Assembly (NCBI RefSeq): GCF_037392515.1
Contig: NC_090281.1
Location: 56,336,753-56,400,752, forward strand
Origin: Haliotis asinina
Lineage: Eukaryota > Mollusca > Gastropoda > Lepetellida > Haliotidae
DNA length: 64,000 bases
Direction of reading: 5' to 3'
Position numbers and translations under genes: made by a program. Positions 2,018 through 53,162 of the stretch are shown here, piece after piece. The notes beneath the pieces were generated by a model that saw only the letters and a list, made by a program, of their open reading frames with translations, did no database searches and was not told where the DNA came from. The stretch's first letter is position 1; every line of letters begins with the position of its first letter.

Positions 2018-4046
2018 ATGCCATACTTAATTGTCCTATTTGGTTTCGGTTTGATCACAGCGCAAACACGTGAGTATCTTTCAGCCAATTCCACCTGCGA
2101 CAAACAGCATTCTGCCAATCCAGATGTTCATTTCTATTGTATATACACAATAATGATAACATATTTTCCATGGTGGATATTTCCTCTGGATAGGATAATA
2201 ATATACACTCAAGATTTGTTTGATTGGCATTACTAGAAGCTGGTAAGTGATAAGAGGGTAAGATTCTTTATGGATAACAACTTCTTTATTGCATATGATG
2301 CGACGTTTCGGTATGGATCCTTATACCGTTGTCAAGCAAGAGTGGAGTAATACATCACAGAACAGACTTATATACATGGACAGGGATAAAGTAATAACAT
2401 CTACAACCAAATCAGATCGGAAATCTGCTATATCCGACCACATCTTCAAATGTCCCAATCACAGCATAATTTGGGACAGTGTAGAGATATTATCCAAAAA
2501 CCACAAGGACTTCACCCAAAGAAAACTGGCAGAAGCAGTTCAAATCAGGAGACACAAGCCCTCAATCAACAGAGATCAGGGATATCTCATCCCAACTGCA
2601 TACAATGACCTCATAAAAATAACAGATTAGAGCTCACCAGCCACCATTACTAATTACCCTATCAGCCATGTATACTTTGTCACAGCTACAGCCACTACTG
2701 GCTTCCTCTTATTGTCTCATCATTACTACCATCCATTGTTGTTGTTGTTAATCCCCCGCCTTTGATTCATACCTACATGTTGTTATTACTTTATCCCTGT
2801 CCATGTATATAAGTCTGTTCTGTGATGTATTACTCCACTCTTGCTTGACAACGGTATAAGGATCCATACCGAAACGTCGCATCATATGCAATAAAGAAGT
2901 TGTTATCCATAAAGAATCTTGCCCTCTTATCATTCGAGACTTGCATAACTAAAGGACATAGTCCATTCACCTGAAGTTTATGATACTAGTCAGCGCATGC
3001 CTGTTTATCTGTCAGTGCATACCTGGGACCCGTCTCTCAAAGCTAAAAACTCCCATACTTTAACACGGACTTAGTGTCTGTCGCTTTGAGTAACAGGGCC
3101 CAAGTTCATGTGATGGTATACTCGTAAGCGTAAGGTGAGGGTTTATAGGGTTACCAGTCAATGTATGTCTGCTAACAAAAGTTGTAATGGGGTATCAGTA
3201 AGTGTATTTCTGCTTATTTAAATCGTAAAAAGGGTACTCGTCATTGCACGTTTATAAATGCTGTAAACGGGTACCAGTAAGTGTATTTTTGTTTATTTAA
3301 GATGTGAAGGGGTGCAGCATTTCTGAGAAATGTTACGGGTGTACGTTTGTGCATATGTTTAAATGAGTTTGTGATGGGGTACCCGTCATCTGTTTATAAG
3401 CATGCGCTAATCAGAACCACGTGTCTGGTGACAGCAGGGTCGATCCAGTGTTTTAACTGTACAACGACAACAGACGTTTGGTGCAGCGACCCCTTTGACA
3501 CTCAGGGTAGGATGTCCTACACGTGTCGACAGGGACAGGCATGCTTCAAGGTCACCGCAGGATCGCAAGGTTGGTTCCATAAACAAATGAACGTGCATGC
3601 CTTGCACGCCATTCTGTGAAAGAGGAATTGTTACCCATAACATTTGTCCAGTATTGGATGTCCAATTTTCTAAAATGCCAAACTCAAAGAAGTGATTAAT
3701 TAAGGATGAAATATATCTATCTGTCTGTCTGTCTGTCTGTATGTATGTATGTATGTATGTATGTAAACACACATAATTTCGGACTGTTAAACTGAATGCA
3801 AATCACTGTTTTCATCCAGTGACCAGGGGTTGCATGTTTCACTCTGTGGGACGAGAGTCCGCCAGACAGCTGAACGAGGACGGTGCTAATTGCTACACCG
3901 ACATCATTAGCCCCACCTTCCAGGAGAGGACCGTCTGCACGTGCGATGACAACCTCTGCAACGCCACAGCACACGCCGTCTTCCCTGTCGCAGCTGTAGC
4001 TGTGGCCGTTGTAGCTGCTCTGGTCGTCCCACTTGTCATGATCTAG
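2018..4046 (+). CDS. Ly6/uPAR-type (three-finger) GPI-anchored surface protein, 3 exons
   Basis: Coding exons are 2018-2069, 3438-3569 and 3820-4046, with GT-AG introns; both junctions are phase 1, giving 136 aa. Exon 1 encodes a hydrophobic signal peptide (MPYLIVLFGFGLITAQT). The mature part has ten cysteines in Ly6/uPAR order: C-x2-C at the start, then single Cys, a C-x-C pair and a terminal LCN motif, enough for five disulfides of a three-finger domain. Two N-glycosylation sequons are visible (NCT, NAT). The C-terminus is an Ala/Val-rich hydrophobic tail ending VVPLVMI, typical of a GPI-attachment signal. The protein is therefore expected on the outer cell surface. Relatives include the quiver/sleepless-type Ly6 proteins of invertebrates; the ligand cannot be read from sequence. 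Intron 1 carries a Penelope-like fragment, and a large minisatellite begins just after the stop. No orthologue name is assigned. Confidence 0.85.
2248..2932 (+). mobile_element. Penelope-like retroelement 3' fragment with inverted terminal arms
   Basis: Two 152 bp inverted arms (2248-2399 and 2781-2932) differ at only one position that I can see. Between them, about 2400-2630 (+) encodes the C-terminal half of a GIY-YIG-type endonuclease. It reads ISDHIFKCPNHSIIWDSVE, then QIRRHKPSINRDQGYLIP, which matches the end of Penelope-like element (PLE) proteins. No reverse transcriptase part is present. PLEs are known to carry terminal repeats, direct or inverted, often containing hammerhead ribozymes. 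The arms here contain a ribozyme-like hairpin (GGTAT/ATACC followed by GAAAC). The element lies in intron 1 of the Ly6-like gene. Near identity of the arms suggests recent origin or gene conversion. Confidence 0.75.
3717..3764. repeat. Microsatellite (CTGT)n/(ATGT)n
   Basis: Adjoining tetranucleotide runs of CTGT then ATGT in intron 2 of the Ly6-like gene, about 50 bp before the exon 3 acceptor. Confidence 0.95.
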
Positions 4047-4069
4047 ATCTCCATTCATAGATTACCTTG

Positions 4070-4914
4070 GTGCGACAGTGACGACAGTGTCTGTGAGTGT
4101 GTCCATTATCTACAACATCAACCATAGCGTGTCCTGGTGCAGCAGTGACGACAGTGTCTGTGAGTGTGACCATTATCTACAACATCATCCACAGCGTGTC
4201 CTGGTGCAGCAGTGACGACAGTGTCTGTGAGTGTGACCATTATCTACAACATCAACCATAGCGTGTCCTGGTGCAGGAGTGACGACAGTGTCTGTGAGTG
4301 TGACCATTATCTACAACATCAACCATAGCGTGTCCTGGTGCAGGAGTGACGACAGTGTCTGTAAGTGTGACCATTATCTACAACATCATCCACAGCGTGT
4401 CCTGGTGCAGCAGTGACGACAGTGTCTGTGAGTGTGACCATTATCTACAACATCAACCACAGCGTGTCCTGGTGCAGCAGTGACGACAGTGTCTGTGAGT
4501 GTTCTGGCGCAGGAGTGACGACAGTATTCTGTGAGTGTGACCATTATCTACATCAACTACAGCGTGTTCCGGCGCAGCAGTGACGACAGTGTCTGTGAGC
4601 GTGACCACTATCTACATCAACCACAGCGTGTTCTGGTGCAGCAGTGACGACAGTGTCTGTGAGCGTGACCACTATCTACATCAACCACAGCGTGTTCCGG
4701 CGCAGCAGTGACGACAGTGTCTCTGAGCGTGACCACTATCTACATCAACCACAGCGTGTCCTGGTGCAGCAGTGACGACAGTGTCTGTGAGCGTGACCAC
4801 TATCTACATCAACCACAGCGTGTTCTGGTGCAGCAGTGACGACAGTGTCTGTGAGCGTGACCACTATCTACAACATCAACCACAGCGTGTCCTGCAGCAG
4901 TGACGACAGTGTCT
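4070..4914. repeat. Minisatellite, about 64-67 bp unit, roughly 13 copies
   Basis: Tandem units built around GTGACGACAGTGTCTGTGAG and ACCACAGCGTGTCCTGGTGC. Two length classes are visible: 67 bp units with CTACAACATCAACC in the first part, and 64 bp units with CTACATCAACC in the later part, plus one shortened unit near 4500. The array starts about 25 bp after the Ly6-like stop codon, so it probably forms much of the 3' UTR or immediate downstream region. Changing unit length would shift the frame, so it is not a repeat protein. Confidence 0.9.
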
Positions 4915-5054
4915 GTTATGTGACCGTGGTTTGTATGCCACGGTGTATTCGTGGTCAGGCTTCTGCAGTGCACCACGAACAATTAAGTGTTCTGCAAGGG
5001 CGCCCTGTCTCCTCTCTGTCATGTAACGGTGGGCATTTGTACATTTCATCTTAA

Positions 5055-6335
5055 TTTATAGAACAATAAAAAAAACCCAATACATTTACGATTTCATCCA
5101 TGAAAACTTAACTATACTCACTGTTGACCGTATTATTTACAAATTCATCTGAGCACAATACATACAAAAGTGGGTGAAAGATACCGCCTGGCACCACCCC
5201 AACATTTGAATTAGATCTCGGTCACTGAATAGGTACTACCTTAAATGACCACTGTCTTCAGTTACTGTACATGTTACGAAGAGTGTCTTGCAATATCTGC
5301 CATTTGTAGTAAGAATATAGAGAAGCTTACGTTTGTATCTAAATGTGTTTAAAACTCTTCACACAGAACTCTTGACAACTGATGAATATATTCTCTCTCA
5401 GTACATTACGTGTCGATATATAACTACAGATGCACCTGTTATGGACTGTTGTGCACTGTTCTTCTCACACGCAGCAACATTTTACCTTCCCTGTTAAGTT
5501 TTTCTCAGTTAACTCCAATGAGAGGATTATCACCTAAGCATGTTGACTGATAATGGCTTCATCTATTCATCTCTAAAAATATTTGCTGTCTTTAGATAGC
5601 CTTCTTGTTATTTATTATTCACCAATAGCCAAACATCAGTCAGTACTCAGCTTATAGATCCAATTTGTAATGTAAAATAAAGTCGGTATGATGCCAATAT
5701 GTGTCCAGGTGTTATAGCCTGTGGGGCATTATAACCAGGGAAGCCTTTCACTCAGTCAAGTACAAGTCACACATGAATGCATGTACAGTTAATACAAAAT
5801 AAAGAGTAGAGAGATCATTATTCACACAATAAGTGCATACACATAAGACAGAAAACAAAACTGATGTTGACTGTGAACTGAATGGACAAAGTAAATTGTA
5901 GTACCAGAAGTCATAGTTTGGTGAATCACCTTCACACAAGGAGAGAAGAGTTTGTCATCATGTGATTTGGACAAACATATTTTCACAGAAAATACAATGC
6001 ATGGAAGGATTAAATTTGGTGTTATTTTGAACGACAAAAAGATATGGGGAAATTAGACTGTAACGTCATTCCAAACAGAATGAAGGTTTTAGGATGCAGA
6101 AATCATGGACATAACATGTTAGTTACAGGATTTGTGACAGAAATTATTGAGTAGGCTGAACAGATTATCACTATGGGTTTTTGAGATTTCTATGGGGCCT
6201 TAGCATCTGCAAGCAATAACATGCTGAGCATGAAGAAGACCAAGAGTGACTATTGGTCAATTTGTTGGTTTGGTCCTCTACATTCCATGATATGTATCAT
6301 AAGCTTCTGCCAGATTTTCTAATGAGAAGCCATCG
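5055..6335. other. Intergenic region between Ly6-like and HtrL-like genes
   Basis: AT-rich sequence with no supported exon, RNA gene or recognised repeat family. The two genes converge here, so their 3' UTRs probably end inside it. Confidence 0.5.
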
Positions 6336-6420
6336 CTGAACCACACTCATGACTGAACGACACTCATGACTGAACCACGCTCATGACTGAACCATGCCCA
6401 TCACCACTGAACGACACTCC
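6336..6420. repeat. Short tandem repeat, about 17-18 bp unit, four copies
   Basis: Imperfect repeats of a CTGAACCACACTCATGA-like unit. They lie immediately downstream of the stop codon of the minus-strand HtrL-like gene, in its likely 3' UTR. Confidence 0.75.
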
Positions 6421-6444
6421 ACCTCAGAACACACAGAATGCCAG

Positions 6445-9400
6445 TCAATAAGTTTGTGTAATCTTGAAGATATCAAACCAGTCTGCTCTTATCAGGTTGA
6501 ACATGGACCTGTTTCTGAAGTACAGCTGCATATTGGCCGTCTGGTCATCATCGACGATGTTTCTGGCCATCCACTGCTCCAAGAGCCTGGAGTGGAGAGC
6601 GTGGTACAGAGACAACACCTCCACTCCACCACCGAACACTCCACCTACCATAATGTTAATATTCTTCTTATGAAGATCCTTGACCTTGGACCAGAGTTCA
6701 ATGTCATCTCTGATTAGGAAAGTCAGTTTATGGGGAACTTGAGTCAGTCTGCGGGGCTTCCAGACATTGTCCCGGGGAAAGATGCCTTCTTTGCCATGTC
6801 CATAACCACCATCCAACCAGAAGAAGTAAGAATTGTTGAAAGGGTTCAGACTCGTGGCTTCCTTCACAAGATCTATTTTTGACAGCTGCACAATATCATA
6901 GTCGGGGTTAGTTGCTTCAACATGATCTCCTTGGACTAGCAACTCATTACCTCGCTGAAACTCTTCACTTGCCATAATCTGCTTCATTCTGGACTTATAC
7001 TTGTAATATGGAAGATCAGGCAGTTGGATTGGGAGAATGGCGGTGGACCCTTCTCGCCCTCTTCTCATCCATTCTACAAACGACCGCCCCTTTTCCTCGA
7101 TGTAGATCACCATATTGACATCTAGCCTCAAGACCTGGGACATGTGTAGCAGGTACTCATTGTAGCTGCGACTCTGCTTCGACCATGATCCCCTCCCTAT
7201 GTCTATCATCCCCGTTACCACGGTGAAATTGTACACACCTGCAGAATAAAGATAGAGTGAGTGTTATTGTTCATGCTGTAGTCATCTACATTGGCTGGTC
7301 AATCTCTACACAAACTGTGTGTGTATCGTTTCACAACAGCAACGTCCCAGCAATATTAATAATATCACAGCTAGTGACAACAGAAATGAGCATCACACAC
7401 TGTGCCCATGTGAAGAATCAAACCTGGGACTTTGGTGTAAGGAAGCAATACTTTAATCATTGCCACGACAACTCAGTTGCCTCAAACAAGCAAACGAATA
7501 AATAAAACTGTTAACACAATATACTGAAAAAAAAACGAAGCTAAAAAAGCAAAATGTGCGGAGGCAATGCTTTAATCACGGCACCAACAACTCAGTTGAC
7601 TCAAACAAGCAAAAGAATAAACAAAACTGTTCACACAATATATTGCAAAAAACAAAGCAAAATAAAAAAACAAACAAAACACATACAAAAAAAAGAAAAG
7701 AAAAAAAAAAAACAAAACGAAAAACACCCCAACAAAACAAGTACATAAAGTATTACATAAAATCCATGATGGGACAAAAGACTATAAATTACATTGTTCA
7801 AAATGTATTTTGGAAAGAACAGTGAACTGTTTGCAAATATTACATATTGCAGGCTGCAACTATATGCTTGACCTTGAGGCACTAAACCGTTAGGAACAGA
7901 GTGAAGACAAATTTTCTGATTCGTATTCATGCGTGTATTAAACCTAACGATTCCAGCGGTAATTCATAACTACGCTATGACAAATAGCACCTCTTAAAAT
8001 CGCTTTAAAAGACAACACAAAAATCCTTTATGGAACAACTTATTAACATTTGTTAAAACAGGGATACTCTAAAACTCTACATAGGCTCCCTGGTTAAGAT
8101 GACCTACAGGTGCATCATCCTTGAGCTTAATAACAGCGAAAACGTTAGATCAAGTCAGTGCGCCTGAATATCGTTCATTCACGACTGACGTGTGGTCTGG
8201 TGACGGTGAAGTGTTGATACACCTGTCAATTGTTTGAAAAGTAAACGGGTAGAATTTGGGAAATCTAAAAGACAACCATCCCACAAGTACATCTTGAAAA
8301 TGTTTTCTGTCAGAAACTCAATAGGTTTGATTAAGCAAAATTTCGTTCTGTAGAAGGATTGTTACAGTCAGGTCACTGGCCCCAGCAGTGTACAGCAGTT
8401 TCAAGAAGGATAACTCCAGTCGGAATCCACGTTAATGGGAAGCCTCTATGGAGCAGATCATCGACTTACACAGGAGTCCTATTAAAGTGGGTAGACCACC
8501 ATAAATTGCACCTGGGAATAGTGTATGTACAGAATGAAGTTGTACGGCATGCAACAAAGACTGCAGCGTCATGGCGTCTGTCTCAGGCAGAGGATGAGTG
8601 GCCAGAGCAGTGGCGTTACAAGGGTTTGACAATAATGTATTGAAGGACTGATGTTTCACATTGATTGAAGAGTAACTGTTAACTAATTGAACAGTTTTGT
8701 GCCTGTGAATGTGCATGATTTTACGTGCTGGTATCCCATTGTCAGAAAGGGTCTGGATGAGACTCTTTCGGGATCGGGGTTAGCCTAATTATAGCCATGT
8801 TTGTTACAAACAATGCAAACGATTGTTTTGTACGCTTATATATTCATAGAAAAAGTAACACTACTACACATGTACTTACAACGTAACTTTATTGGAAAAC
8901 AATGTATAATAAAAATAGTACTCACATTTATGTTTTCTTTTTCTAAATCTCGGAATGTGTGAGCACAGCACTTTCTAATTATCAATATGAATGGTAAAAG
9001 TTGTCAATGAACTTGGATCATGAAAAGTAGTTCCGTCAACCTCAGTAGTTTCTGTTCTTCTTAGCTGACCAATCAACGCCGAGAATCACTAAATTGCAAA
9101 TATCGAATAGATATTGTACGGGGTCTTTTTTTTTACATTTTTCACTGAAAACGAATGAAGAATGACTTTTTATGATTCACAGAATCTCACCCTCGTGTCT
9201 TCTGTTATCAGTTATAAATCAATACTCGTTGATAAAGGTACAAATATTTTTTTCTGTAACTTTATCAATTCGTTTTGATAGAACTGATATCAGTAGACAT
9301 TTTGGTGAGATTTTCTATCTATCATTATTACACATCTGAATGTTGACTAAGGCAATAAGGGGTGAATAAGGATTTGGGCTCTCTAAATCTAACATTCAGA

Positions 9401-9693
9401 ACAACAACTTTCGGGATTTTCATAAGGAAAAATCGGTTTGGACAAATCACACCTGATTAATAAACAGCGAATAGATCTGTCGGGCTGATGAGTGTGCGTA
9501 TAAATGTAATACCTCTCTTTTCTCCAAAGCCTTGCCAGTGCGTTACCATTTTGCTGAGCCGTACATCGTCAGGCGTTCGTCGGAACATCGCCAAGACTTG
9601 GAATCCACACACGCAGACGGTGAATGTCGTCGCCACTACCACAAACGTCCATGAGGCGACAACCGCGTAGGTCAACCCTATCCGTCTCTTCAT
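6445..9693 (-). CDS. Type II membrane protein with HtrL/YibB-family domain, 2 exons
   Basis: On the minus strand, exon 1 is 9693-9513 and exon 2 is 7238-6445, with a GT-AG intron in phase 1; the product is 324 aa. Residues 1-4 (MKRR) are basic and about 5-34 are strongly hydrophobic, so a single signal anchor with the bulk of the protein outside the cytosol is likely. Exon 2 encodes almost the whole HtrL/YibB-type domain. It starts VYNFTVVTGMIDIGRGSW and includes MVIYIEEKG, the aromatic/Asp motif FFWLDGGYGHG, and GGGVEVL. The family is named after E. coli htrL/yibB and also occurs in nematodes and other invertebrates; its biochemical activity is not established. The layout (short anchor, then a domain with an Asp-containing WLDGGYG motif) resembles Golgi enzymes, but that is only an inference. 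An out-of-frame ATG lies 4 bases upstream of the chosen start; the chosen frame continues into the anchor. Confidence 0.8.
7340..7745 (-). repeat. Degenerate SINE-A with duplicated head and A-rich tract
   Basis: 7340-7475 resembles a reverse SINE-A (CAGCAATATT, AGCATCACACACTGTGCCCATGTG, ATCAAACCTGGGACTTTGGTGT). Its last part is repeated in tandem with a unit of about 115 bp (about 7440-7556 and 7557-7665; compare CAACTCAGTTGCCTCAAACA with CAACTCAGTTGACTCAAACA). An A-rich tract follows at about 7640-7745. All of it lies in the HtrL-like intron. Confidence 0.65.
7750..9510. other. Remainder of the HtrL-like intron
   Basis: No further exon with both splice signals and a recognisable product was found. 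The ORF near 8359-8643 has no recognisable domain. I see no clear repeat family. Confidence 0.45.
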
Positions 9694-10757
9694 CCATCTC
9701 CAACATATCTAACATGGGAAAATATCGACATGTATGTCTTGCACAGAGGACTGGTCACAACCTGATTACATACTTGCCAACTCTCTCGCGTCTGGCTTAG
9801 TCTAAAGACTCACGCGTTTATTACCCTGGTCACGAAACTGCTTAAACACACACCAAACTGGGTTCATATGAAAACTGAAAATAACAAAAGCGCTTCTCCC
9901 ATTCTGTTTCATATTCAGACCACTTAAAATCACACAAAAAGTCTGAATTCAGTGTTCGCGTTAACGCAGAAACCTGCAAACATTTTTTTTGCGTGCGTCT
10001 CTTGTACAGATAGATCTACATACTTTTAAAAGGAAACCTAAAACAGCAACATATCAACAAAAAATTGAAATTATTAAAGACTGTACTAAACATTTCACGC
10101 GCAAAAGACTTGGACTACATATTTATGACTTTATTTCCGCATGCACTCGTACCGCGGACACTGGTTTGAATGAATCTTTTTCGGACAGACGGCCGGTCTG
10201 TGTCTCTTGGACCCAGAATCTCCAGCATTTTTCTCTCCTGGGGTAATAAGCTCTGCGTTTATAATCTGTGTAACAACTTTGACAGGTACGTCATGTACCT
10301 ACCCAACCGGAACGAGAAGGTTGACATCTCCAGTATAAACAACGCTGCATCGCATTCAAGCAGCGACCACACACTGTTATCATACTGCAGACAGTATACA
10401 TACTGTACCTTTTGAAGATCCATTCATCAACAAGACGTCTTTCGGGCATGTATATTTTCAGCAAACACCTTTGTTTTTGTGAGCAAGACGATATATCAGT
10501 TTGATGGAACGAGGGCAGAACGGCCAACGTGTAAAAACGGCCAGTGTGTGGTTAACAAAAACGGACATAATATAGTAATTAACAGTAGTAGGAAACATGT
10601 ATACTAATAAGAGTAAGTCAAATTTTGTTAGTCACAATAAAGAAGTTGACACCATTCTTGCTCTTCTTATGACAGTGAGGACACATATACCATCGTAAAA
10701 TGTAAAGTCATCAGACCGACCGACCCTTTGCGAAGTGACTGAGAAAATCAGGGAATC
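9694..10757. other. Intergenic region upstream of the HtrL-like gene
   Basis: Contains the likely promoter of the minus-strand HtrL-like gene. It also holds an unassigned exon-like ORF at 10462-10607 (+), preceded by TATATTTTCAG and carrying a C-KNGQ-C motif. A small hairpin-rich segment at about 10604-10672 (AATAAGAGTAAG / CTTGCTCTTCTTAT) resembles part of the cassette described at 53004. Nothing else is recognised. Confidence 0.4.
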
Positions 10758-10759
10758 TA

Positions 10760-12304: not shown

Positions 12305-12475
12305 TATAATACTGTCTATCGTTTATACCACGGCATGTTTTTAAAGACTCGTGATAAGATCAAACTGCTCACCCTCGGAGGCGATTAGTACATGGCACTG
12401 TTTGCTGAAATACACTAGCGGGATGCTGATGGACCTGGGGATGTGCACAATCATGGGCCCCACAGTGCTGGGTGG

Positions 12476-14862: not shown

Positions 14863-14949
14863 TTCCTGCGACAAGTGGGAACAGCAAGAGGAATGTTGGC
14901 TGAAGCGCTCCTAAAATCTCTTTTAGTTGTACTGGCAAGACATACCTCG

Positions 14950-14965
14950 CTCAAAAAAAAAGAAG

Positions 14966-14996
<31 letters not shown>

Positions 14997-33800: not shown

Positions 33801-36800
33801 GTTATGCAACAGCTTGAAGAGTTTATCACTCTTCCAAAAATGGTGGAGTGATTACCGGTTGCTCGTCTGGCACTAATAAAGAATGTACTAGGAGAGTCAG
33901 GAGGACAAGTGATGAATTTATGACTGTTGATGACTACATTCAATCTATGGAACAGACTGAGGATGCTGGGATTTAAGTCAATTTGGCAGCCAAACAATTT
34001 TGTTCAGCCTAGGAATTCAAATTTTCCTGAGCCACCATTTTGGTTTGAGAATGAAATGACCTCATCCAGCTATTGATGTGATTGCAAGCGGCTGAAAGTT
34101 AGCACTCTTTTGTGAGGCGAACTGCTGTACATTGCTTGCAAGCAACTGGTTGTTTGCAATGCACCCTAAATCAATACATGAAGTATAACCTCTACAAATG
34201 AATAAGAAAGACCCATACGACCAAAATACACATTCAAATGTCTGAATGTCTATGTTATGCTCATGACCTGTCCTGACATTTTGCCATCATCAAGAACTAC
34301 CTACTACACATCACACTGGTACCACTCACTACCTTCTGCACACCTACCTTGAGTCTGAGCTCCAGGAAATACAGACGTTGTCATCATATGCACCAAAGAA
34401 AGTTCTGTAGTGGACAAAGGGGTTGAACTCCCTTGTCTTCCCTGGAGCATGGAACACCAAGATGACACTGTCTCTCGTCACAGCAAACTTTCTGGAAGCA
34501 GATGAAATAAAACATAAAAATCACTTTAGTGAAGAATACTGACTTAATCAAAGAGATTTAGTTGTCCTGTAAATTTATCCAAACTGAAAATGTGCTTACT
34601 TTCCATCAGGACTGAACCTCACATCGTACACGTGCTTGTGGAAGTGATATGTGGCCAGCACTGAACGACTGACCAGACTACAAAGAGTTGCCTCCCCTTC
34701 TGCAAACACAAACACAAATGTCAATAAGGCCAAGCACAAATCTTGCAAAAAAAATCAGCTGAGATATATCACTCAGGAATTTTTTTGAGAAAGTACACAA
34801 ACATATTGCAATTACATGTTCTATATGTCATCTCCACTTGCTGAACACCTCAGTACATGAGGATGCAAGAGAAAGGAATACAGTATTTCTTTATGTCATC
34901 TCTATCAAAATATAAAAAGGGTTCAAAGACCATTTATGGTTTCCTCTAAGTAGCCCACCATACACTTTTAGAGTCCCATGTTGGGATTTGAACCACAGAC
35001 CTTCCAAACGGAGTTGGACACAATGTCCACATGACCAAAGAGGTCAACCCTGTCAGGAAGCTGACAAGGTATGGATGTCGTCTGCAGGTTGACTCCACGC
35101 CCTGATATATCCGCAACTGTGTTTCATGCATAATACAGTACCACAATGACTGAACTAAAACATTTAGCAATCAGGATGTTTTTAGTGAGTTTCTTTAAAT
35201 GTCTGTGAAACAAAAAAAACCCAACATATTTCAGCTTGAACATTTTGATTTCGAATATGCTAAGTAGCTAAGCTGCAAGTGATGTACTGAACACGTTCGA
35301 GATACAGTTATGGAGTAGTCAGAAATGACAAAACACAATAGACAGTTCATTGAATGTTTACTATCTCAATGCACTTAAGGCATATTATGTGCATTCAAAC
35401 ATCCATGGTACCTGCTTACACCTCTTCCTACACTTATCAAATCATACTGATTTCTAAAGAACCCCTGGTGCATTCTATAAATCCCTTAAGCGTGGCATCT
35501 GACATCAATCCAAACAAACATATTTTGCAATTCACCAAATTTCATTGCTTGTTTGACTACGAGGAAGTGTTTAGTAATCTTAGCAATGAGATAATGTGCT
35601 GTGACAAAGAGAATTGTTAAATTTTAAAGGGTCAACAAATTTATTTGTGAGTTGGCCCTTGCCCTATAATACTAAACGAAAATAACATGAGTGACTCTAG
35701 ATTTATGCCACACTCAGCAGTATGCCAGCTATATGGTGGTCCATAAATAACTGAGTCTGATCAACAGTGACCAACAGAATGAGCATGTGTCTATCCATGT
35801 ACAGTAAAGAAGGCATCACTTTACTAATACAGGCTGGGGATGCTCATATTAGAGGATATAGCATAGATGTCCCTTATAGAGATGCTGAGATTACCTTCGT
35901 CAACCAGGATCATTGTGAATCCATCCGGTGATACAGCCACGCACCGGATGTTCAACCGACATTCTATAGGCAGTGTTTCAGACTTGTTGCTGGAAGAAGA
36001 TTTGAATTGAATTGAAAAAACTGAATTATTTTCTGTAACATCAAACCTACGTTACAATACATATCGTATGAGTGAGTGCGTGATGGGAGGGTGAGTGAGT
36101 GAGATCTATGGTCCGTATGAAAATGCAACTCTGACTCTTCAATAAACAAAGTATCATATTTTTTATTGTAAGTGCTCTGCTCTTACATCTTTAACTTCTG
36201 AACAGAGAGGTTCATCATCATTTGCAACTGCAGTACATTACACAACCCTTTATCCGTAATTCTCAATATTGGAACCTGATCATACTTTCTTCTTAAAGGT
36301 CACATGCAACGTAAAACACAACTTTGCAGATTCTGGTACCTTTCGGTATGCACTTACTGAAACAAACCATAAAAAATGCCAATTCAACCTATAAAGTGGA
36401 AAAAGACGCGATGAAAAAAAAGCCCGCGAAATCGGAGTTCAAACGTTTCACTAAATTCCCCCCAGCGCTGGGGGGAAAACTGGTTTCAACAGCTGTGATG
36501 CGCTGCGTCCATAACGCATGCTCAGTGAATAGGTTCGCGGAGCTTGAAACAGTATGCATGATCAGTGTCTGAGGTCGTGAGCAGTAGTCTAATCTTGGTT
36601 GTGTACATAAACAAGTAAATAATCTACTTGTTACGTAAAACAACTTGTTGATTGTGGTAAGCAGTCTCTGTCTCAGAGAAAGCTCAGTGTCTGGTTTATT
36701 CACACCTATATGTCTGCCTGCCTGCCTGTCTGCTAAAGACAACATGCAATACACAGCTTTAATCATTGACCACATGCAATTTGAACTTAACACCTATCAG

Positions 36801-39800
36801 ACTATACGACATAAAGAAAATAAGTTGATTTATAACTCGTGCACCCGAGTCCCGTGTCTGCCACATTATGTAATTAGGCACGTGTGATACACATGACATG
36901 TTTTTATGTCTGTGGGTTGCAAACAAACTACATTCACTTTTTTCGGATGACTGGATCTGATGGAAACATGTGCAAACTCTTGTCAGTTTCAAGTCCTGCT
37001 TTGTACTTGGACGAATGACAGATTCCAGCCACGCAGTAGTTTACCATCTCTACTGACATGATTTTTTATTGGATCGAGCGCAAATTCAAAGAACATGTAT
37101 TTTCTAAACCCAACATCTGTATAAACATTCTTCGTGGATAACGACTTCTTTTCGTGTATATGATTTTGTTTGACAACAGTATATGAATCCATACTGAAAC
37201 GACGCTTCAAGTACACAAAAAGAAGTTGTTATCCATAAAGAATCTTACTTTCTTGTGACTGGCTATACTTCTAAAATGCCCATCAAACAGATCATCTTTC
37301 TGTACACACAATCAGCCCTCAGCATATCAGCAAATGAAACAGCCAATCGGAAGCCGTCGTTACACTTGAGTGCATATCCATCCGCTATGACTGGGTTCGG
37401 TCTCCCGAGGGCTTCGTTTCGGGGGAAGTAAGCCCAAGTACAAATTATTGCACTTTTGAATCGCGATTGTACGCTTATAATTGTGTTTATTTGTTTTTTC
37501 AAAAGCAGCAATGTATATTATATGTCATGAATAAGTGATAAATGTGTTTTAATTATGTTTGATTTTTTGGTTGCATGTGACCTTTAACATCTTAATGCAC
37601 AGGAATGCATTTGGAACAGGAGGTTTCAAATGAAATATTCCCGTGCTTCAAATACTCAATAACACCCGGAAATTGGCCAACACATGATGTTTATCGACAT
37701 TGTAAACACAAAAGTAAACCAAAGGGTTTTACTGTCTGCGCTCGTTTACATGGAGAACGAGTACAGCAGTGAAGTGTCATCAGCTGGCCGTTTCAGCTGG
37801 TTCCCATGGTAGCATCTGGAGTTGCTCATTTGTGACGTCATTCTAACTTTACGTCACAATATGATTTGAATGACGTCCCCACTCTTGATGACGCAACAAA
37901 ACAATTGTTTGCGGTGTTTCTACGTGTCAGTACGCATTAAACAGTCTTGCAGTTTCCGGGAATCTAATACCATTTGATCACGTTTTTCAACCAATCAGAT
38001 TACAGAACACAGTGACTTTTGGTTTACAATTCTCAATATTGGAACCTGATCATACTTTCTGAGGTCAAAGACGGTGACCCTGTTCCCCACTGGACTGACG
38101 ACACTATTCCCATCGGGGGTGAAGGTCAAGTTTCCTTGCCGGTATACAGAACCCAATAAGTTAGCAAACTGAAATACAACACAGAGTAGAAAATTAAATT
38201 ATGTACACATTAAAGAGAAAGCAATGTCCAGACTGGCCTGAGTTCAAGAAAAACACATGTTGAAACAGTATATTATACAATAATACAGTATTGTATTGTG
38301 ATACAAACAGTACTTAATTAAAAGTGAACACATTTTTCTCTGGTAATTTTGTCATACAAAACATTAGGTATGATGAGAGAGGGTGAGATGATTTATTGAT
38401 ACTTGGCTGATACCATTGGCTCTTCTCACCTCGAGTGCGTGAGTGAGTGAGTGAGTGAGTGAGTGAGTGAGTGAGTGGAGTTGAGTTGAGTTGAGTTTTA
38501 TGCTGCACTCAGCAATATTCCAGCAGTCTGTAAATAATTGAGTCTGAAACAGACAATCCAGTGACCAACAACATAAGCATCAATAGGGAACCAATGAAAT
38601 GTGTCAACCAAGCCCGCGAGCCTGTTAGTTGCCTCTTACCACAACCATAGTCGCTCATCTCTAGTAGTATCTACAAAAATATTTGGTGACTGGAAACCTA
38701 TGGTATCAACTAGCCATCCATGAAATCATGATATACGCATTGTATCATTTTGTGACCTCTGACCTGAGATATGTATCATATCATGAGGGACCTGTATCAT
38801 GACATCACTAGTTTTATTTATGTAATAAAGTGAGCTGAATGCTTAGTCAAGTACACTGGACAGTACACTGGTCTGTCCAGTGTACTCGACTAAGCATTCA
38901 GCTCACTTTAATACATAAATAAAATTGTTTGAAGGCACAATTAATATTTTTATGGACATAGTTTTCTGGAAAAGAATTACTGTCAAATTCTGCTGAATGC
39001 TGGCTTCTTGAATACTATGCATCACTCAAAGTATATGGCGTTCCTGACCAATCCCTGTTACAGATATCATCATTTGACTTCCGGTTACATGAATTCGTTA
39101 TATAATAATTATTGTTAACTCAAAAAGGACATCTGGTCCCATGGATTCAAACAACAGCAATCTTACATATATATAAGCTGAAGTTAGTCAGTGAGAAGTT
39201 AATTTGCATTGTAGCTATCTTATCCAATTAACAAATCAGTGCGGCTCACACCTTCCCACCATTGATAACTGAGTTCAAAAGGCAGATTAGTGCCATGTAT
39301 ATCTGTCGATTGCCGACAGATTTTGTTCATGGATCTTAAGAGGTATGTGTATTTTGTATTTCATTGTGCTAGTATTCAAATGAGTTCATATTTATATACT
39401 ATTTGTTTTCATTATCTATGCCACCTAATGTATTGTTGTGTTATATTTTGAGACGATGTGCTGAATATTGAATTGTTCAAGTTTTCATCATCTTTTTTTC
39501 TACCCTCATAGACATACCTGTGTCTCAAGTACATTGATAAGCCAAATTTACTACTTGGTACGCAGCAATTAGACTAATCGAGATTTGACTTACATTGTAA
39601 TGAGGGAATGTATCACATTAGTATACACACAGATTTTAGAACATCACTGTGGATTTGTGATTATCATGTTTATTGCATCTTCTCATATTCCTCGTAAACA
39701 ATTATTTTCTAAAAGGAAATCTGTCATTTGATTGAGTTTATACTGATCACAATCTACACTAGATCCTGTTGTACAGATTCCATGCTGCTTTCAGTTTTTC

Positions 39801-45433: not shown

Positions 45434-46900
45434 ACCAACCGAGGACCAGTGACGGCAGCGAAACACCATTCCCGGCAGAGAAAGGAGAACAGTTGTAAGC
45501 GTGGAAACCTCCCTTCTTTTTCTTCTGCCGCGTTGCTCACTGACTTGTAGGCTCAGTTGTGAGACTGAAGCAGACAAAGTTGTTCCAAATTGGGGGGAAA
45601 TGAACAAATAATGCTGTAGATGGTTCCATATTACTGCACACCTGGAAACAAGAGATCGTGTACAACCTGTATGTATATAGTGCAGTGGCCGATTGTCCTA
45701 GTCGGTCCCCAGTCAGTCTGCGTGAAGTGACTGTGTATGTGTAAATGGTGAACTAGTGTGCATAAATCATACGCACTGCTGGCTAGTAGGTATCCTTGCA
45801 TCTAGCTTGTGCCCTACTGGAGTAGATTAATTTTCGTTGATACAGACAAGACGGTCTGCAATGGGATCAGTTGTGGCTGACAGACTTAGTACTAACGATA
45901 GTCAAAAGCTTCGTATTTGCTCGGTAATATTCAGAAATCCCATTATAACCGTTTCCACATAGTACTGGGCCTGTCTCGATTTGTGCACATATGGGTGTTA
46001 ATTTGCTGCCACCATGAAGCCTGTATTTGATGCCATTGTCTGTACATTTTGCTTATTTTCAACCAACAACTGTGATCTTAGTTTGATTCCCTACGAGTGT
46101 TTGTTTATTCATTATTTCTTATGATAACCACTGGCTTTGTATTATTAGCTAACGTAAACATCAGGAAAATGTAAGGCATGGCTTCTTACATCTTTCAAGC
46201 TTTGGTAAACATGTTTCCTCGGAAGCTAGGGATAGGGAATGAACAGTTCAATGCTGAAGTTAAATTTCATCCACATTGCCAAATTCATCAACTGTTTAAC
46301 CTATCTGAAATAATATCAGTGATTGCAGGGGTTCATAAGAATATGGTCATGAATGCAGAACTAGCTCATGGTGAATTTTTATGTGTACTTGATTTTCAGT
46401 CTTGTGGATTTAGAGTGATATTAATGTGCAGACTTACTTCAAATACTGCTTAGTGACTTCCCATCTTTTGTTTCTTGCTGTTAATACCATGCTACATTCC
46501 AGCTGTTGTGAGTACTAGGTAACCATATCAACACTGTAACCGTAGCAACCTGTTCTTTACTGACTGTACTTTTCTTCTCATCTTTATCATTTTAATAAAA
46601 TTGTGTAGATATTTGTAAGTTATAGACCCGACCGATGTTGTTGTACTTTATCTCCTTAAGACTTGTATAATATCAGGAACTGTTGATATGTTTAGAAGCA
46701 CAGCGGCAAGATGGCACAGCAGAGAATTTATAAGTTGATTTCATTGGCTGCTCAAACTAGAATTTTCACCAATCAAAGTGGAATGTTGCTGTTCTGTGCA
46801 GAGGTTTATCAGATCTTGTAGATTCCATACTGTATGTGTAAACACATGTAAGTTGTTTCATTGTCATATTATGTATGAATAAAGCATATAACTGTCATTA
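45434..46900 (+). terminator. ATP6V0C: ATP6V0C 3' UTR and poly(A) signals
   Basis: AATAAA occurs at 46594-46599 and again at 46878-46883, both in AT-rich contexts with GT-rich sequence after the second. The 3' UTR is therefore likely 1.2-1.5 kb long. The ORF at 46178-46453 has no recognisable domain and is taken as UTR. Confidence 0.55.
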
Positions 46901-47118
46901 CCACTTTGTAGTGTGTTTCTGTCCAGTAAGCTACCATAGCATTGTCATCACCATCTGTAGTGACATGTGAATGTCATCATCTCTCTTGTACGGTCTTACT
47001 GTCCAGAAAGAGTTTTCCTAAGCACTGTTGTCGCAATCTATAGTGGAATGTGAATCTTGTGTAGCGTCTTCCTGTCAGAAATAGTAACAATAGCAGTGTC
47101 ATCACCATTTGTTGTGTA
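46890..47118. repeat. Degenerate tandem repeat, about 73 bp unit, three copies
   Basis: Units contain, in order, a GTCCAGTAAG or GTCCAGAAAG string, a TAGCATTGTCATCACCATCT-like string and TGTAGTG..ATGTGAAT. It begins at the second ATP6V0C poly(A) site. Confidence 0.65.
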
Positions 47119-47190
47119 TTGCCATAGTAAGGACAGTGAGTGGAGGAAGTTCAACATTGTTCCTTTAATTTTCTGCTACAGCCAATATAA

Positions 47191-47292
47191 GTTATCACAT
47201 CGTGTTGAGGGAAATACGAGCCAGAGGCGAGGGGAATACAACCTTATGAGGGACTGATAGAACCCTGTATTTCCCTCGACACGATGTGATAA
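47191..47292. repeat. Small inverted-repeat element
   Basis: Arms 47191-47216 and about 47268-47292 are inverted (GTTATCACATCGTGTTGAGG / CCTCGACACGATGTGATAAC), about 50 bp apart. A MITE-like or structured element; no family assigned. Confidence 0.65.
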
Positions 47293-47299
47293 CTAACTT

Positions 47300-48750
47300 A
47301 TCTAGCTGAATGTTTTCACTAAATCAAAACAAAACAACACGCATCGAATATACTTGCTGTCATGTTGACTCCAGCTGATCGTTTGACCTCAATGCACCGC
47401 ACGTTACTAAAGGCTTGTCGATGCATGCTTTTCTCACTTCTAGCGTCGTCACCGAGGCGTAACGGGAGGATATAACTTTTGCAGTGGGGGTATAAAAGTC
47501 GTATACTCCCGCTGGCGGATCATGATGGATGTACAGAGTCACATGGACCAATCAGAACTTGACATTCTTACATGAGGTTAGATAACTGATTTTGTTTAAC
47601 ATTGTGGACATCTCAGGTGGATATCAAATAACTGAAAATCATTCCTAACAAAGCATCACTTTGGTTCACTGAAGTGACCTCTGGGGACAGTTGGATAACT
47701 TGTCTGTGATTTCGTTGGTGGGTGAGAGTGAACCAAACAACTTTTTGACAACATTTAATTGCTTGGTATTAATTAACCACATATTTTGTGTTTCATTTAA
47801 GACTAAACAGAAGTCCTTAATGGTGAGAGTACAAAATACAAAAGTTTATTCTTTCTTTGAAGTTCAAAGTTCTGTTGCAGTAAATTGAAATGTAGTCCAC
47901 CCAAAAGAAGTTAAAGAACATATGAAGCTGTTTTCATGTGATTGGTCAGACTTATAAGAGAATTGGATGTTCTCTGACTTATAGTATATATAAGTAGTTA
48001 TACCGTGGGCAGTAGGGCACTAAAATGCCTACTCTGAGATTTGAAGGAATGTTTAAGTCTTTACACTGACTTTGCTTCTTGTAAGGAGAATAGACCAGTT
48101 AAAAGATAACTGGCTGTGAATAAGTAGTGTTAGGTTGTCTTGACATAGCTCGCTGTTACTGTAGTACACATGGTGTTGAAGAGAAGAGTGTAAATACACT
48201 TGTGTTTGTGTTTGAAAGGAACATAGAACCTGTTTGCGGTATTGTGGTCTGCCGGTTGCAGACTTCCTATGTGCATGTGACTATCTTCAGTGTCACATGT
48301 AACTTGTAAGCTGTGTGCACAGTCAGTAAGGATGGCAATGGTTGGTATTCCTGTGTGAGTCCTGAACACTCATACCTTTGATGCTGCAACCACTCATTAC
48401 TGAGAGCACTTGCTGATAAACCTGGGATCTGGGAACATCCCATGGTCAACAAGTCTAGTATGTGCTTGTCAAGACAGACCCTCAACATTACTGCCTTTTG
48501 TCACAGATTAGATCAACCTTTGTTTACTCTGTTGACTGGATGTGGATGTGTATCCTTTGGGCTTGACGATTCATGTAAACTAGATAGTTAATGTTATTGT
48601 GAAAGAACGTTCAGACACAGCTGTCAGTTCTTGCTGGATATACAATAGAAATTTATTCACAACATATTTTCAAGCTTGTTTTGTAAGGTAGTGATTTTTT
48701 AAAATGATATCAAACATGAAATATTGTTTTTCATATTGTTTTTAACATCA
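47300..48750. other. Intergenic stretch
   Basis: No supported exon or repeat family seen. The several ORFs of 60-79 codons have no recognisable motif. Confidence 0.45.
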
Positions 48751-50275
48751 GGCCAGACCAATTATATTTTTTGTTTTACCAATTTTTGTCCTCACAAACT
48801 TAAAGGTCACATGCAACGTAAAACACAACTTTGCAGATTCTGATACCTTTTGATATGCGCTTACTGAAACAAATCATCAAAAATGCCAATTTAACCTATA
48901 TACCTATAAAAAACGTGATGAAAAAAAAGCCTGCGAAATCAGAGTTCAAACGATTCACTAAATTTCCCCCAGCACTGGGGGAAAAAGTGGTTTCAACAGC
49001 TGTGCTGTGCTGTGCTGTGTCCATAACGCATGTGCAGTGAATATGTTCGCGGAGCTTGAAACATTATGCATGACCAACTAGGAGGTCGTGAGCAGTAGTC
49101 TAATCTTGGTTGTATACACAAACAAGTAAATAATCTGCTCGTTACATAAAAAATGTGTTAATTGTGGTAAGCAGCTTCTTTCACAGAGAAGGCTCAATGT
49201 CTGATTTATTGACATCTATATGTCTGCCTGCCTGTCTGCTAAAGACATGAAATTTGATCTTAACACCGATCAGGCTACACACCATAAACAAAATAAATTG
49301 ATTTATGACTTCTACACCCCAGTCCTGTCTCTGCCACATTATGTAATTAGGCAAATATACATACACGTGACATGTTTTTGTGTCTGTGGGTTGCTATCGA
49401 ACTACATCCATTTTTCTCTGATGACTGGATCTGACGGAAACTGGTGCAAACTCTTGTCAGTTTCAAGTCCTGGTTTGTACTTGGACGAACAACAGTTTCT
49501 AGCCACGCAGTAGTTCACCATCTCTACTGAAAGGATTTTTTATTGGATCGAATGCAGATTCAGAGAACATGTATTTCCAAAACCCAATATCTCTATATAC
49601 ATTCTTTATGGAAAACATCTTCTAGTCTAAATGAATTAGTTTGACAAAGGTATATGAATCCGTACTGAAACGCTTAAAGCACATTAAATGAAGTTGTTAT
49701 CCATAATGAATCTTACTTTCTTGTGACTCCCCATACTTTTAAAATGCCCATCAGCAAATGAACCAGCCAATCGGAAGCCGTCGTTACACTTGAGTGCACT
49801 CCTACCCGCTATGACTGGGTTTGGTCTCCCACAGGCTTCGTTTCAAGGGAAGTAAGCCCAAGTACAAAATATTGCACTTTTGAATCGCGATAGTAAATTA
49901 TACATTTTGTTTATTTGTTTTTTTCACAAGCGGCAATGTATATTATATGTCATGAATAAGTGATAATTGTGTTTTAATTATGTTTGATTTTTTGGTTGCA
50001 TGTGACCTTTAAGGCAGGTTCAAAATAAAAATCAAATCAGCAGTCAAAGTATTATTTCCTTTAAAATAAAAGTATTTTACTTGTGTCAATTTATGGAGTG
50101 ATTATGGGGCCAAAACAAAATTCCCCCAAATATTTCTTTTAAGTTTTCATTTTTTGCCAATAAATATATAAGGATTCTATTTGTTTGAATATGGAATATT
50201 GAGCTTTACTTTTATCTCTTCTTCTTGAACAAATATGACCACTGTAGCTGTAAAGCAAGAAATAAAACTAGTCTG
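48751..50275. mobile_element. Older inverted-repeat element carrying the nested TTAA element
   Basis: The left end (48751-48780, GGCCAGACCAATTATATTTT) and right end (50250-50275, GTAAAGCAAGAAATAAAACT) are inverted relatives. They also match the ends of the element at 61206-61509. The TTAA-flanked copy 2 sits at 48800-50012, about 20 bp inside the left end. No coding capacity. Confidence 0.55.
48800..50012. mobile_element. TTAA-flanked non-autonomous element, copy 2
   Basis: Same ends and internal order as the copy at 36293-37587, about 80 bp shorter, with scattered substitutions and small indels. It includes a more degraded hairpin cassette at about 49600-49716 (TTTGACAAAGGTATATGAAT, GTACTGAAACGC, GAAGTTGTTATCCATAA). 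Confidence 0.8.
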
Positions 50276-50654
50276 TCCTTAATGGGTTTATGAAGGGCTA
50301 TCAGAAGCTGTAGAATTTACACATGAAAGTCTGTGTTGGAGGTTTAAATGCACACACATATATAGTGCATTACCATTAAATACTTAATGGAGAACCTTTT
50401 ACAAACAACTTGAAATAAAATAATTGCAGATTTGGCTGATCCAAAATATTAAGAGTGACAAAGGGTTACTGTAAACTAAATGTGTTACATGGCTACACTG
50501 GTCAATACAAATAAGCCACAAACAGCACCAGCCTCCTCAGACATATTAATTATTGTTCATGGTACTGTAAGAATATTAAGCATCTCACATATTTTCAACA
50601 GAAAATAATTTGTCTACCTATACTGATACACTCAATTATCTTATCTTATCTTGG

Positions 50655-50865
50655 TTGTAATATTCCAGCTATATGGTGGCTGTCTGGAAAAAATGAAGTT
50701 GTGACCAGACAATCCACTGATCAACAGCATGAGCTTCGATCTGCACAATTGGGGTACAATGACCTGTCAACCATGTCCATGAGTCTGACCACCAATCCCA
50801 TTAATTCCCACTTATGAGAAGCATGGGTTACCGAAGATCAAATAACCCAGATTTTTGTGGGTCGA
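50655..50865 (-). repeat. SINE-B, degraded
   Basis: Reverse copy: GTAATATTCCAGCTATATGG, CAATCCACTGATCAACAGCA, AGCATGGGTTACCGAAGATC. Confidence 0.75.
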
Positions 50866-53003
50866 CAACTACCTTGAGCCATAGAATAAGGCAATAGAGT
50901 GAAATAATAGAATTATGGGTTATAAATTATGTAAGACCTTTGATGTGGTATTAGTCTGTGTCAAAGGTAGCAATTCTGCATTTTCTGCACTTTAATCTTA
51001 TTAGTAGCCCCAGGCAAGCAGACTAGTGTCCTCATTAAGGCTAAGGCATTGCAGTTGAGTGTCACCTGTCATAAGATGGTGTGACTGTCTTCACAGATAG
51101 ATGATGGTGATTGTTGCCAACTGATCCATGACAATCACATGACCAGGAGGTACAGCCACGGTACAGTTATTTCCCTGGGGGACTGGCATGGAGAAGTGTG
51201 TGGTTGCACCTGATGACTTAATGAGGTATTACCTGTATATCACCTGAGAAAACTGCTCATAAACTCATTGTGCTATTGCCAGGTTAATGAGTTGGGAACT
51301 TCCAGCAGCAATCTGAATGGAACCTACAGCCAGCTGTCAGTGTTCATTTTGTAAAGAGTGAATTATACGTTTGTATGTTGTTAGCTGTAAACAATGGAGC
51401 TGGTAGACATGTACTATATTTGTTTGAAATATTGTATGTGTTGGGGTAAAACAAGATCAATAAAGTCTTGTGTTGTTTCCTGGGGCTATCCCACAAGGCA
51501 CTTGTTCCTTCAGGTGTACCTGAAATGTGGGATAGGTGTTGGAATTGTGGCATTGGTCTGACTGTTACCAGGCTTGTCAGCTTCTCACCTGTGTTCTGGG
51601 GTTTCATCATTCAACAAACAGTAAATGTCTTATATCTGCTTGAACTGAAATATTTACATGATCAATACTTTATGAAGACACAGTGCCATATAGACATGAA
51701 AACTTTAGTTACTAACAACTATGGAGGGCAATGTGTGATTAATGTTGGCAAGATTAATTAGTTGAAGCAGTGTTTGTCCATAGCTGTAATTTTACTAAGC
51801 CCCTTGAGGGTGATCATAAGCAGGTCCTCTCAGAACTGGGTGACTCTGTGACACATTCATATGAGTGAAGGTAGACACGTTGCAGAAAACATCAAACATA
51901 TTCATGGACATGAACCCAGTGGAGTTTGTAAACATATCAATATAATCATTTACCTGACCAGGTGAGGATTTCCAACTGACTGACTTCAATAAACAAGGTT
52001 TGAAAAATATTGCTGAGATCGAATTGAATTTGTAAGTGGGCCATACCTGGATACAAGATAACAGCAGTGGGCTGCCAAAAAAAAATCAGCCATCTGTAAA
52101 GGACTAACCATTTGGTATGCTTTGAGGGGAGTGGAGTGGGATTTTATCCTCCCAAAATATTGTCTAACAAGGAGCTTGAAAGTAGTCATCATCCAGATTG
52201 TTGAAAGGAAAGCAAATTGTCAGCCACAAATAAATATCGGTTGCCAGGAGGTTTTTGTAAAAAGAACTACGATTTTGATCTACATAAAACACCCAGACCC
52301 CCTCCTGTGAATAGACATTTCCATGGTAAGCTCTGATCATGATGATGATGACGACCTCCAGTTTATTGAACAGGAAATGTCTGTGACTCACATCATTGTG
52401 ATCCAAGCTCTCTCAGGCTGTGGTGAGATGACCACCAGTGGATATACAGGGTGTATACAAGACACCTAGATCCATCCCATACGACCAACAACTTTATCCC
52501 ACTGGAGCAGCATATGCCCACCATCTTGTGAGACCTTGAAGTGACCTTGACCCTCTATACACAGCAGCTGTTCATGTTTTTACACTCTGCATAATCATGA
52601 GATGCGTTGTTTTTAAGAGGCAGAAATCATGAATACAAAATAATTGTTTGTGGTAAATTCCACATCTGTTGTCTGTCACTTCACTGGTGGAGGTCACGTT
52701 TTCACCAAATATTTAGTGACACATTTTTGGTTAAACTTTGAGTTTGGAAGTTTGTAATTTTCACACTTTCATTCTAATTCCTTTTTTCTAAACTGAAACA
52801 GTTTACTGATGGCAGACACCAATACTGGATCTACAAATTACTTGTCAGGATTGGACATTGATGCAACGAGCAAATGCTGCAAGAGTGAGGCTGTTTGGTC
52901 ACCTGGTTATGACCCAGGACTTCCCTTGATCTAAGGATCCTCTCTGAGAGATTTCATTTCATTGAGTATGGTTTTATACATCTTTGAAGGGCATTTAGAA
53001 GTG
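50866..53003. other. Intergenic stretch without recognised features
   Basis: Unique-looking AT-rich sequence. Several ORFs of 60-97 codons on both strands show no domain or splice-supported continuation. Confidence 0.45.
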
Positions 53004-53162
53004 GAAAGCATAAGAAAAGCCAGATTTATGGATATTAACTTCTTTATTATGGATTACACAGGTGAATAAACCTGATGAAGGAGCAAGCATTATGCTCTGA
53101 AATGTTCTGTTATCCACAATAAGAAGTGGATATCCATAAATCTGGCTTTTCTTATGCTTTCA
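53004..53162 (+). ncRNA. Palindrome with hammerhead-ribozyme-like core
   Basis: Outer arms 53004-53052 and about 53112-53162 are inverted (GCATAAGAAAAGCCAGATTT / AAATCTGGCTTTTCTTATGC). In the centre CTGATGA (53072-53078) is followed by a hairpin GGAGCA...TGCTCT (53080-53098) and GAAA (53099-53102). This is the order of the two conserved hammerhead boxes around stem II. A convincing cleavage-site strand (UH before stem I) is not clear, so catalysis is uncertain. Such cores are known from termini of Penelope-like elements, whose arms elsewhere in this window resemble this cassette. Confidence 0.55.

Follow-up and report, generated by a model that had tools for sequence, protein, structure and literature searches.

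The stretch of the Haliotis asinina genome considered here, hereafter the window, comprises 64,000 nucleotides of contig NC_090281.1 (positions 56,336,753 to 56,400,752) and contains several copies of a hairpin cassette, in which inverted arms surround a hammerhead-like core. With high confidence, this cassette can be regarded as the end region of Penelope-like retrotransposons (PLEs), consisting of a minimal type I hammerhead ribozyme and a leader of about 80-90 nt, one insertion of which was amplified by a TTAA-flanked DNA element. The features concerned, including the pseudo-long terminal repeats (pLTRs) and an open reading frame (ORF) remnant, are listed below; hammerhead positions follow the standard numbering.

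2214..2399, minus strand: inverted pLTR end of the PLE insertion, with a hammerhead at 2302-2335 (minus strand) and the leader, tail included, up to about nt 88 past the predicted cut; homology to T1 reaches 2213
2400..2633, plus strand: presumed PLE ORF remnant, 76 aa up to the stop
2781..2932, plus strand: 3' pLTR, with hammerhead core 2845-2878 (TTGACAA, stem II, GAAACGTC), motif AATAAAGAAGTTGTTATCCATA and a short arm to about nt 54 after the cut
36293..37587, plus strand: T1, a TTAA-flanked element with 29-nt terminal inverted repeats and no long ORF
37124..37293, plus strand: PLE-derived cassette in T1, with a short inverted arm, hammerhead-like core 37170-37203 (TTGACAA ... GAAACGAC, position 16.1 = A) and a long arm to about nt 90
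48800..50012, plus strand: T2, a second member of the same TTAA family, 81.5% identical to T1
49600..49760 (approximate), plus strand: PLE-derived cassette in T2, with the core from 49641, more decayed than the T1 cassette
52980..53161, plus strand: body-less PLE insertion (PAL), with a long inverted arm from 52980 (leader about nt 80), hammerhead-like core 53072-53106 (CTGATGA ... GAAATGTT) and a short arm to 53161 (about nt 56)

A first-pass annotation of the window, made from the sequence alone, had described the cassette as one ribozyme-like terminal module, and the homology of its copies is borne out by alignment. The segments 2248-2399 and 2781-2932 form an inverted pair of 99.3% identity, and the T1 interior (37166-37293) aligns with the inverted PLE copy (2339-2213) at an E value of 1.6e-26. 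The T2 interior matches at 5e-14, and the claim that both TTAA elements carry the cassette is thus upheld as well. The arms of the T1 palindrome (37124-37246) are 83% complementary, those of the palindrome at 53004-53161 measure 41 nt and are 95% complementary, and a palindrome search of T2 returned the terminal repeats alone and did not detect its inner arms. Single-strand folding yielded z scores of -8.1 for 37115-37255 and of -10.4 for 53015-53150. The layout exceeds chance, since a 20-mer of the arm occurs in 2,712 exact copies throughout the genome versus none for the control; all such counts refer to 1.14 Gb in 159 contigs and were controlled by searching the reversed pattern in the same genome. 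Within the window, the palindrome and the PLE insertion have 24 nt in common, all of it arm text (E 2e-4), and their kinship therefore leans on the genome-wide families. The heptamer TTGACAA, said to occupy the core of most copies, indeed stands at 2845-2851, at the mirror site of the inverted copy, at 37170 and at 49641; the palindrome instead has CTGATGA at 53072. Searching the whole window with Rfam gave no match at the gathering score, and at E values up to 10 no hammerhead appeared, a microRNA model matching the T1 palindrome far under its cut-off.

Of the three kinds of host element that had been distinguished, two are left, since the palindrome at 53004 is a PLE-type insertion like that at 2214-2932, with duplicated target sites: the hexamer ATACAT at 52976-52981 recurs at 53162-53167. 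The same organization was found in a sample of 30 palindromic loci. One arm extends to leader nt 77-82 in 27 of the 30, the other stops at nt 43-51 in 23, and usually each arm has one of the two end points, in opposite orientation; the centre junctions, compared by eye, differ among most copies. Target site duplications (TSDs) were assessed in 29 of these loci, the duplicate L054 having been removed. The true flank pairs scored 6.93, compared with a mean of 4.39 and a maximum of 5.41 in 5,000 permutations; this run replaced an earlier one with strict end patterns, which covered just 11 of the 30 loci. The ends of the PLE insertion in the window and those of the T1 cassette are asymmetric in the same way, lying at about nt 54 and nt 88 past the predicted cut in the former and at about nt 43 and nt 90 in the latter, and their TSDs, judged by eye only, are suggestive (TSD-like CATCTCTATATACA / CATCTTTCTGTACACA in the subfamily alignment of T1). 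In addition, a sample of 57 loci, picked by the core pattern from the start of the chromosome-size contig C1, includes nine with an upstream inverted partner, the break points being varied; a further three loci (L074, L098, L115) lie only weakly above their shuffles. The traits of PLE insertions, i.e., inverted pLTR copies, a tail between two end points and TSDs (permutation-tested in the palindromic loci), are present, and the segment at 52980-53161 is a PLE insertion without a remaining body.

Some individual palindromic loci deserve a comment. L053 (G000:C7) and L054 (C2) are identical in their aligned palindrome sequence and flanks, which suggests a segmental or assembly duplication. At L068, positions 1902-2621 hold what is left of a diverged TTAA element, the palindromic insertion being some 200 bp away; this locus was considered as a palindrome residing within a TTAA element and discarded, as the palindrome is not at the homologous place.

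T1 and T2 belong to a family that bears TTAA at both ends in 28 of 30 copies, the window copy included, and which we take to be a miniature inverted-repeat transposable element (MITE), putatively of the piggyBac type, with TTAA as its target. According to the first-pass annotation, the cassette seemed to have been captured by unrelated transposons or to have jumped into them. What emerges is better described as one old PLE insertion into a TTAA element, followed by amplification, with a cassette that is not better conserved than its surroundings: T1 and T2 agree at 128 of 152 cassette positions (84.2%) and at 925 of 1,054 positions in the remainder (87.8%). The annotation itself had listed this outcome as one that would speak against its reading. 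The simplest account is that the TTAA elements descend from one copy that took a PLE insertion before amplification and in whose descendants the passenger decayed. By this route the cassette has probably spread to a thousand or more places, the core segment typical of the TTAA family having 1,190 exact copies, with TTAA origin assigned by the segment alone. Among 36 TTAA-related loci searched for the cassette, L018 gave no match and L002 a match at an unrelated place. A copy predating the insertion was not found among the 40 candidates scored out of 2,203 first-look candidates for a query of joined TTAA-element flanks. L129, the sole contiguous match of these 40, was rejected as an ancestral empty site since it keeps ACATTCTTTATGGATAA of the left arm, which points to a secondary deletion. 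At L018 (G000:C2:84499142-84501674), a TTAA element is inserted in reverse into a copy of itself, and the host halves overlap by 4 nt, which fits a TTAA duplication.

An independent mobile ribozyme module of the retrozyme kind, which entered several unrelated transposon families by jumping or by capture, would likewise explain a cassette within the TTAA family, and also the many apparent body-less copies (1,127 first-look candidates, 40 scored), whose TSDs resemble those of a non-autonomous element. However, end points, tail and inverted layout match those of PLE insertions. Moreover, a single TTAA family is the sole non-PLE host seen, with no second capture among 40 scored candidates, and six of the first eight arm matches in the genome lie inside that one family. 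Such a module is hence improbable. It is more improbable still, to the point of being nearly dismissible, that the TTAA elements retain the hammerhead as a domesticated ribozyme for their own use. In the T1 subfamily, stem II is paired throughout, with an A-U closing pair where L006, L008 and L128 have G-U, and TTGACAA as well as GAAA are kept in most copies of the family examined. On the other hand, an A at position 16.1 faces A15.1 in 98 of the 100 typical segments listed, T and G occurring once each. The A15.1-U16.1 pair is usually held essential in hammerheads, although a ribozyme with an altered pair (U-A) cleaves, less efficiently (both from PMC3088659). Besides the conservation figures given above, the otherwise complete copy L129, which lost most of its cassette, likewise argues against domestication.

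Interpreted as a minimal type I hammerhead that lacks helix III, the core of the cassette comprises Y3-U-G-A-N-R8-A, an extra nucleotide, stem II (5 bp, its loop about 8 nt long), G-A-A-A, C and G-U-C. The hammerhead pattern including NUH fits the PLE copies; in place of GTC, T1 has GAC, T2 has GCT and the palindrome has GTT. A relaxed core pattern matches 5,125 times in the genome versus 1,029 times in the control. With a fixed stem-loop of 19 nt, the counts are 2,227 for U3-A8 (control 14), 780 for C3-G8 (1), 130 for the mixed form U3-G8 (10) and 149 for the mixed form C3-A8 (10), from which it follows that TTGACAA represents the core pair C3-G8 swapped to U3-A8. Positions and pairing were analysed in 56 of the core loci on C1, where 26 are U3-A8 and 21 are C3-G8, the mixed forms accounting for 6 and 3. 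At nt 10, the extra nucleotide, every one of the 26 U3-A8 loci has C and 20 of the 21 C3-G8 loci have A, and the stem II pairs 11-24, 12-23 and 13-22 surpass all 500 permutations. In a tree of 54 rows, from which two duplicates and the positions 3 and 8 had been excluded, all 26 U3-A8 rows fall on one side of a branch (support 99/93), with eight mixed rows scattered on the other. The TTGACAA variant hence forms a clade of its own, a possibility that the first-pass annotation had raised; the single-branch grouping indicates one switch instead of repeated compensatory change. For an independent-pairs comparison of positions 3 and 8 the tree offered too few pairs.

Another sample was picked by the arm motif described below rather than by the core. 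Positions 3 and 8, read by eye, could be scored in 10 distinct loci of 20, five being U3-A8 (L134, L136, L137, L141, L142), five C3-G8 (L130, L132, L133, L135, L145) and none mixed. Most of these ten have other core changes, and the other loci are truncated or decayed, or constitute a junction (L144) or a duplicate (L146). The possibility that the core strand pairs instead with the arm motif of the same copy was dropped, as own pairs score no better than permuted ones (9.62 versus 10.01 for U3-A8, 9.24 versus 9.27 for C3-G8).

The U3-A8 core arose once in the sampled tree and outnumbers every other form in this genome; it therefore probably permits ribozyme function and may be active. A competing explanation regards TTGACAA as a dead core, the double change being drift in lineages that lost activity. 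Since the change is one event on the tree, the 2,227 U3-A8 copies do not constitute independent evidence; moreover, the C at nt 10 of all 26 U3-A8 loci is able to pair with G12, the core table was collected using the core itself as pattern, and hammerhead mutants left insertion undiminished in a PLE of Anolis in vitro (PMC11167929). Nevertheless, both bases changed jointly, mixed forms are rare, and the sample picked by the motif, with its even division and absence of mixed forms, repeats this picture. In PMC3088659, natural U3-A8 cores are mentioned for 'several hammerhead ribozyme examples' and covarying cores are stated to be active in vitro, with Przybilski and Hammann 2007 cited for the activity of U3-A8 hammerheads. 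Loss of activity thus appears unlikely, yet it deserves to be kept in mind.

Pattern searches for the core also retrieved an array on C1 (G000:C1:14249759-14250945), in which eight relaxed-core matches recur at an exact spacing of 165 bp; it is a tandem array and probably a satellite whose fit to the pattern is accidental. Directly upstream of the ribozyme, L007 and L143 have short tandem repeats of stem-II text (e.g., GACAACGGTAT).

Every kind of cassette carries the arm motif AATAAAGAAGTTG-N(2-3)-ATCCATA on the 3' side of the hammerhead core, and it is found, exact or slightly altered, 3' of cores from both clades. In its exact form with a two-base spacer it has 1,751 copies in the genome and none in the control. 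Exact AAAGAAGTTG is present in 22 of the 56 core loci, and in 20 of these 22 the distance from cut to motif is 10-13 nt. The spacer ahead of ATCC measures 2 nt in 12 loci and 3 nt in five. Among 100 matches listed, neighbouring motifs less than 3 kb apart are divergent in 13 of 16 cases. The motif is probably non-coding, because the K-E-V frame meets a stop within 48 nt in 10 of the 22 loci with exact AAAGAAGTTG and because the spacer varies in length. The notion that the shared text is the coding start of a PLE ORF (K-E-V-x-I-H-K), conserved at the protein level, was largely rejected on the same grounds and is very doubtful. The ATG within CTGATGA does open a long frame in some C3-G8 copies, two of 12 loci being free of stops in the stretch read and two more extending over 31-32 codons, but the remaining eight run into a stop after 3-18 codons.

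Between the two arms of the PLE insertion lies the 76-aa remnant, which we take, from sequence features and context, to be the C-terminal tail of a PLE endonuclease. Its relatives were scored at 150 places out of 3,306 candidates and include open frames of up to 813 aa, a frame of this length lying near G000:C2:42419843. Among the 13 matches of the remnant on C1 below 63.34 Mb, nine are followed on their own strand, at a distance of 200-305 nt, by a perfect U3-A8 core, and not one of the 13 by a perfect C3-G8 core. Pieces of the same protein end also lie upstream of C3-G8 cores at L081 and L135, the latter having a further core change.

Several observations weigh against assigning the cassette to a PLE hammerhead end. 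The PLE assignment is read from ends and coding fragments rather than from complete copies. The name given to the remnant depends on sequence features and context, because Pfam gave no GIY-YIG match and NCBIfam none either, and the PDB match was at chance level only; its association with U3-A8 cores partly reflects a query taken from the U3-A8 lineage. As for the ribozyme, single-strand folds of the window PLE core reveal no clear hammerhead (z -1.3 and +0.06), and in the minimum-energy fold of a shorter piece nt 10 pairs with G12. Across the 56 core loci, the stem II pairs 9-26 and 10-25 do not rise above permutation; in stem I, pair 1 is at the permuted level, pairs 2-3 are modestly above it and pair 4 is below. 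Concerning the palindromic insertions, the leader ruler was built from the same 30 loci and stops at nt 82, and a clear TSD was not seen at some loci, e.g., L041, L061 and L066.

A mechanistic model is provided by the Anolis PLE, for which reverse transcription was found to start at two neighbouring internal sites, with both target strands cut and extended and the tail corresponding to the stretch between the sites (PMC11167929). By analogy with this in vitro system, the PLE reverse transcriptase of the abalone would initiate synthesis at two adjacent positions within the RNA, doing so on both strands of the cut target, and the resulting two complementary DNAs would meet near the ribozyme, leaving divergent inverted arms with or without the element body between them. 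The body-less copies would be mobilised in trans. One insertion of the window PLE's own lineage, with its U3-A8 ribozyme, would have entered a TTAA-flanked DNA element, which would then have copied the PLE cassette as a passenger. Reverse transcription in Anolis starts 111-118 nt into the ORF and the hammerhead cut lies 26 nt in, i.e., the start is situated about 85-92 nt past the cut and thus near the outer end point observed here. Moreover, the Anolis element has a hammerhead in its pLTR (PMC11167929). In rotifers, the pLTRs of PLE copies are inverted, the tail measures 31 bp and the TSDs measure 8-10 bp (PMC3846280). The present insertions hence resemble endonuclease-containing PLEs in their divergent inverted pLTRs, the tail, some 30-40 bp long, that separates two end points and the short TSDs (PMC3846280, PMC11167929), but differ in that many lack a body between the arms and in that most ribozymes are U3-A8.

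Similar comparisons apply to the other known systems. Minimal type I hammerheads found in PLEs, for which cleavage in dimeric form has been proposed (Cervera and de la Pena 2014; Lunse et al. 2017, through PMC7761336), share the lack of helix III (GAAACGUC), thousands of copies and the association with PLEs, whereas the majority core here is U3-A8 and has an extra C ahead of stem II. Hammerheads with a U3-A8 core that occur in nature (Perreault et al. 2011, PMC3088659) display the same covariation at the same core pair; in contrast to the 'several' examples given there, about 2,200 pattern-perfect cores occur here in one genome and form one clade in the sampled tree. Metazoan retrozymes (PMC7229834) are likewise small non-autonomous hammerhead elements known from molluscs, among others, yet they lie in tandem repeats and give rise to RNAs of about 170-400 nt, unlike the palindromic copies, which are single inserts with PLE end points. 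The T1/T2 family agrees with TTAA-target MITEs in its TTAA duplication, terminal inverted repeats, absence of a long ORF and many copies, and is set apart by its PLE-derived hammerhead passenger.

The first-pass annotation knew of no earlier description, an impression that does not extend to the components. PLE hammerheads (PMC11167929; PMC7761336), inverted pLTRs with a tail of 31 bp (PMC3846280) and the U3-A8 covariation (PMC3088659) are already published. Apparently new are the scale of the U3-A8 clade, the abundance of body-less insertions and the motif common to both clades, and, within a limited literature search, the amplification of a hammerhead-bearing PLE insertion by a TTAA element appears to be new, too. 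Viewed as module capture by unrelated transposons, the finding is ordinary and apparently amounts to one passenger insertion. Its significance lies elsewhere: the two-start-site mechanism of one lizard PLE in vitro seems to have its footprint in this very different genome as well, where about two thousand hammerheads with a swapped core moreover form a natural collection, and the short conserved motif constitutes a testable candidate signal for the internal start of reverse transcription in PLEs. More speculatively, this motif may be a cis signal for binding or start of the PLE reverse transcriptase, with the hammerhead end and the motif being enough for mobilisation in trans. If so, the genome would contain body-less, palindromic mini-PLEs of about 170 bp in large numbers, most PLE lineages would run on the swapped U3-A8 pair, and one mini-PLE would have been spread further by a TTAA transposon. 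This extended scenario is put forward tentatively and is, on balance, rather unlikely to hold in full.

Apart from the cassettes, the window contains a dispersed repeat of about 165 bp at approximately 50659-50824, copies or pieces of which, about 71-81% identical, lie at 764, 16276, 21537 and elsewhere in the window. Finally, a tRNA-like match on the minus strand at 63254-63324 scores 28.3 bits against a gathering score of 29 and possibly represents a tRNA-derived repeat.

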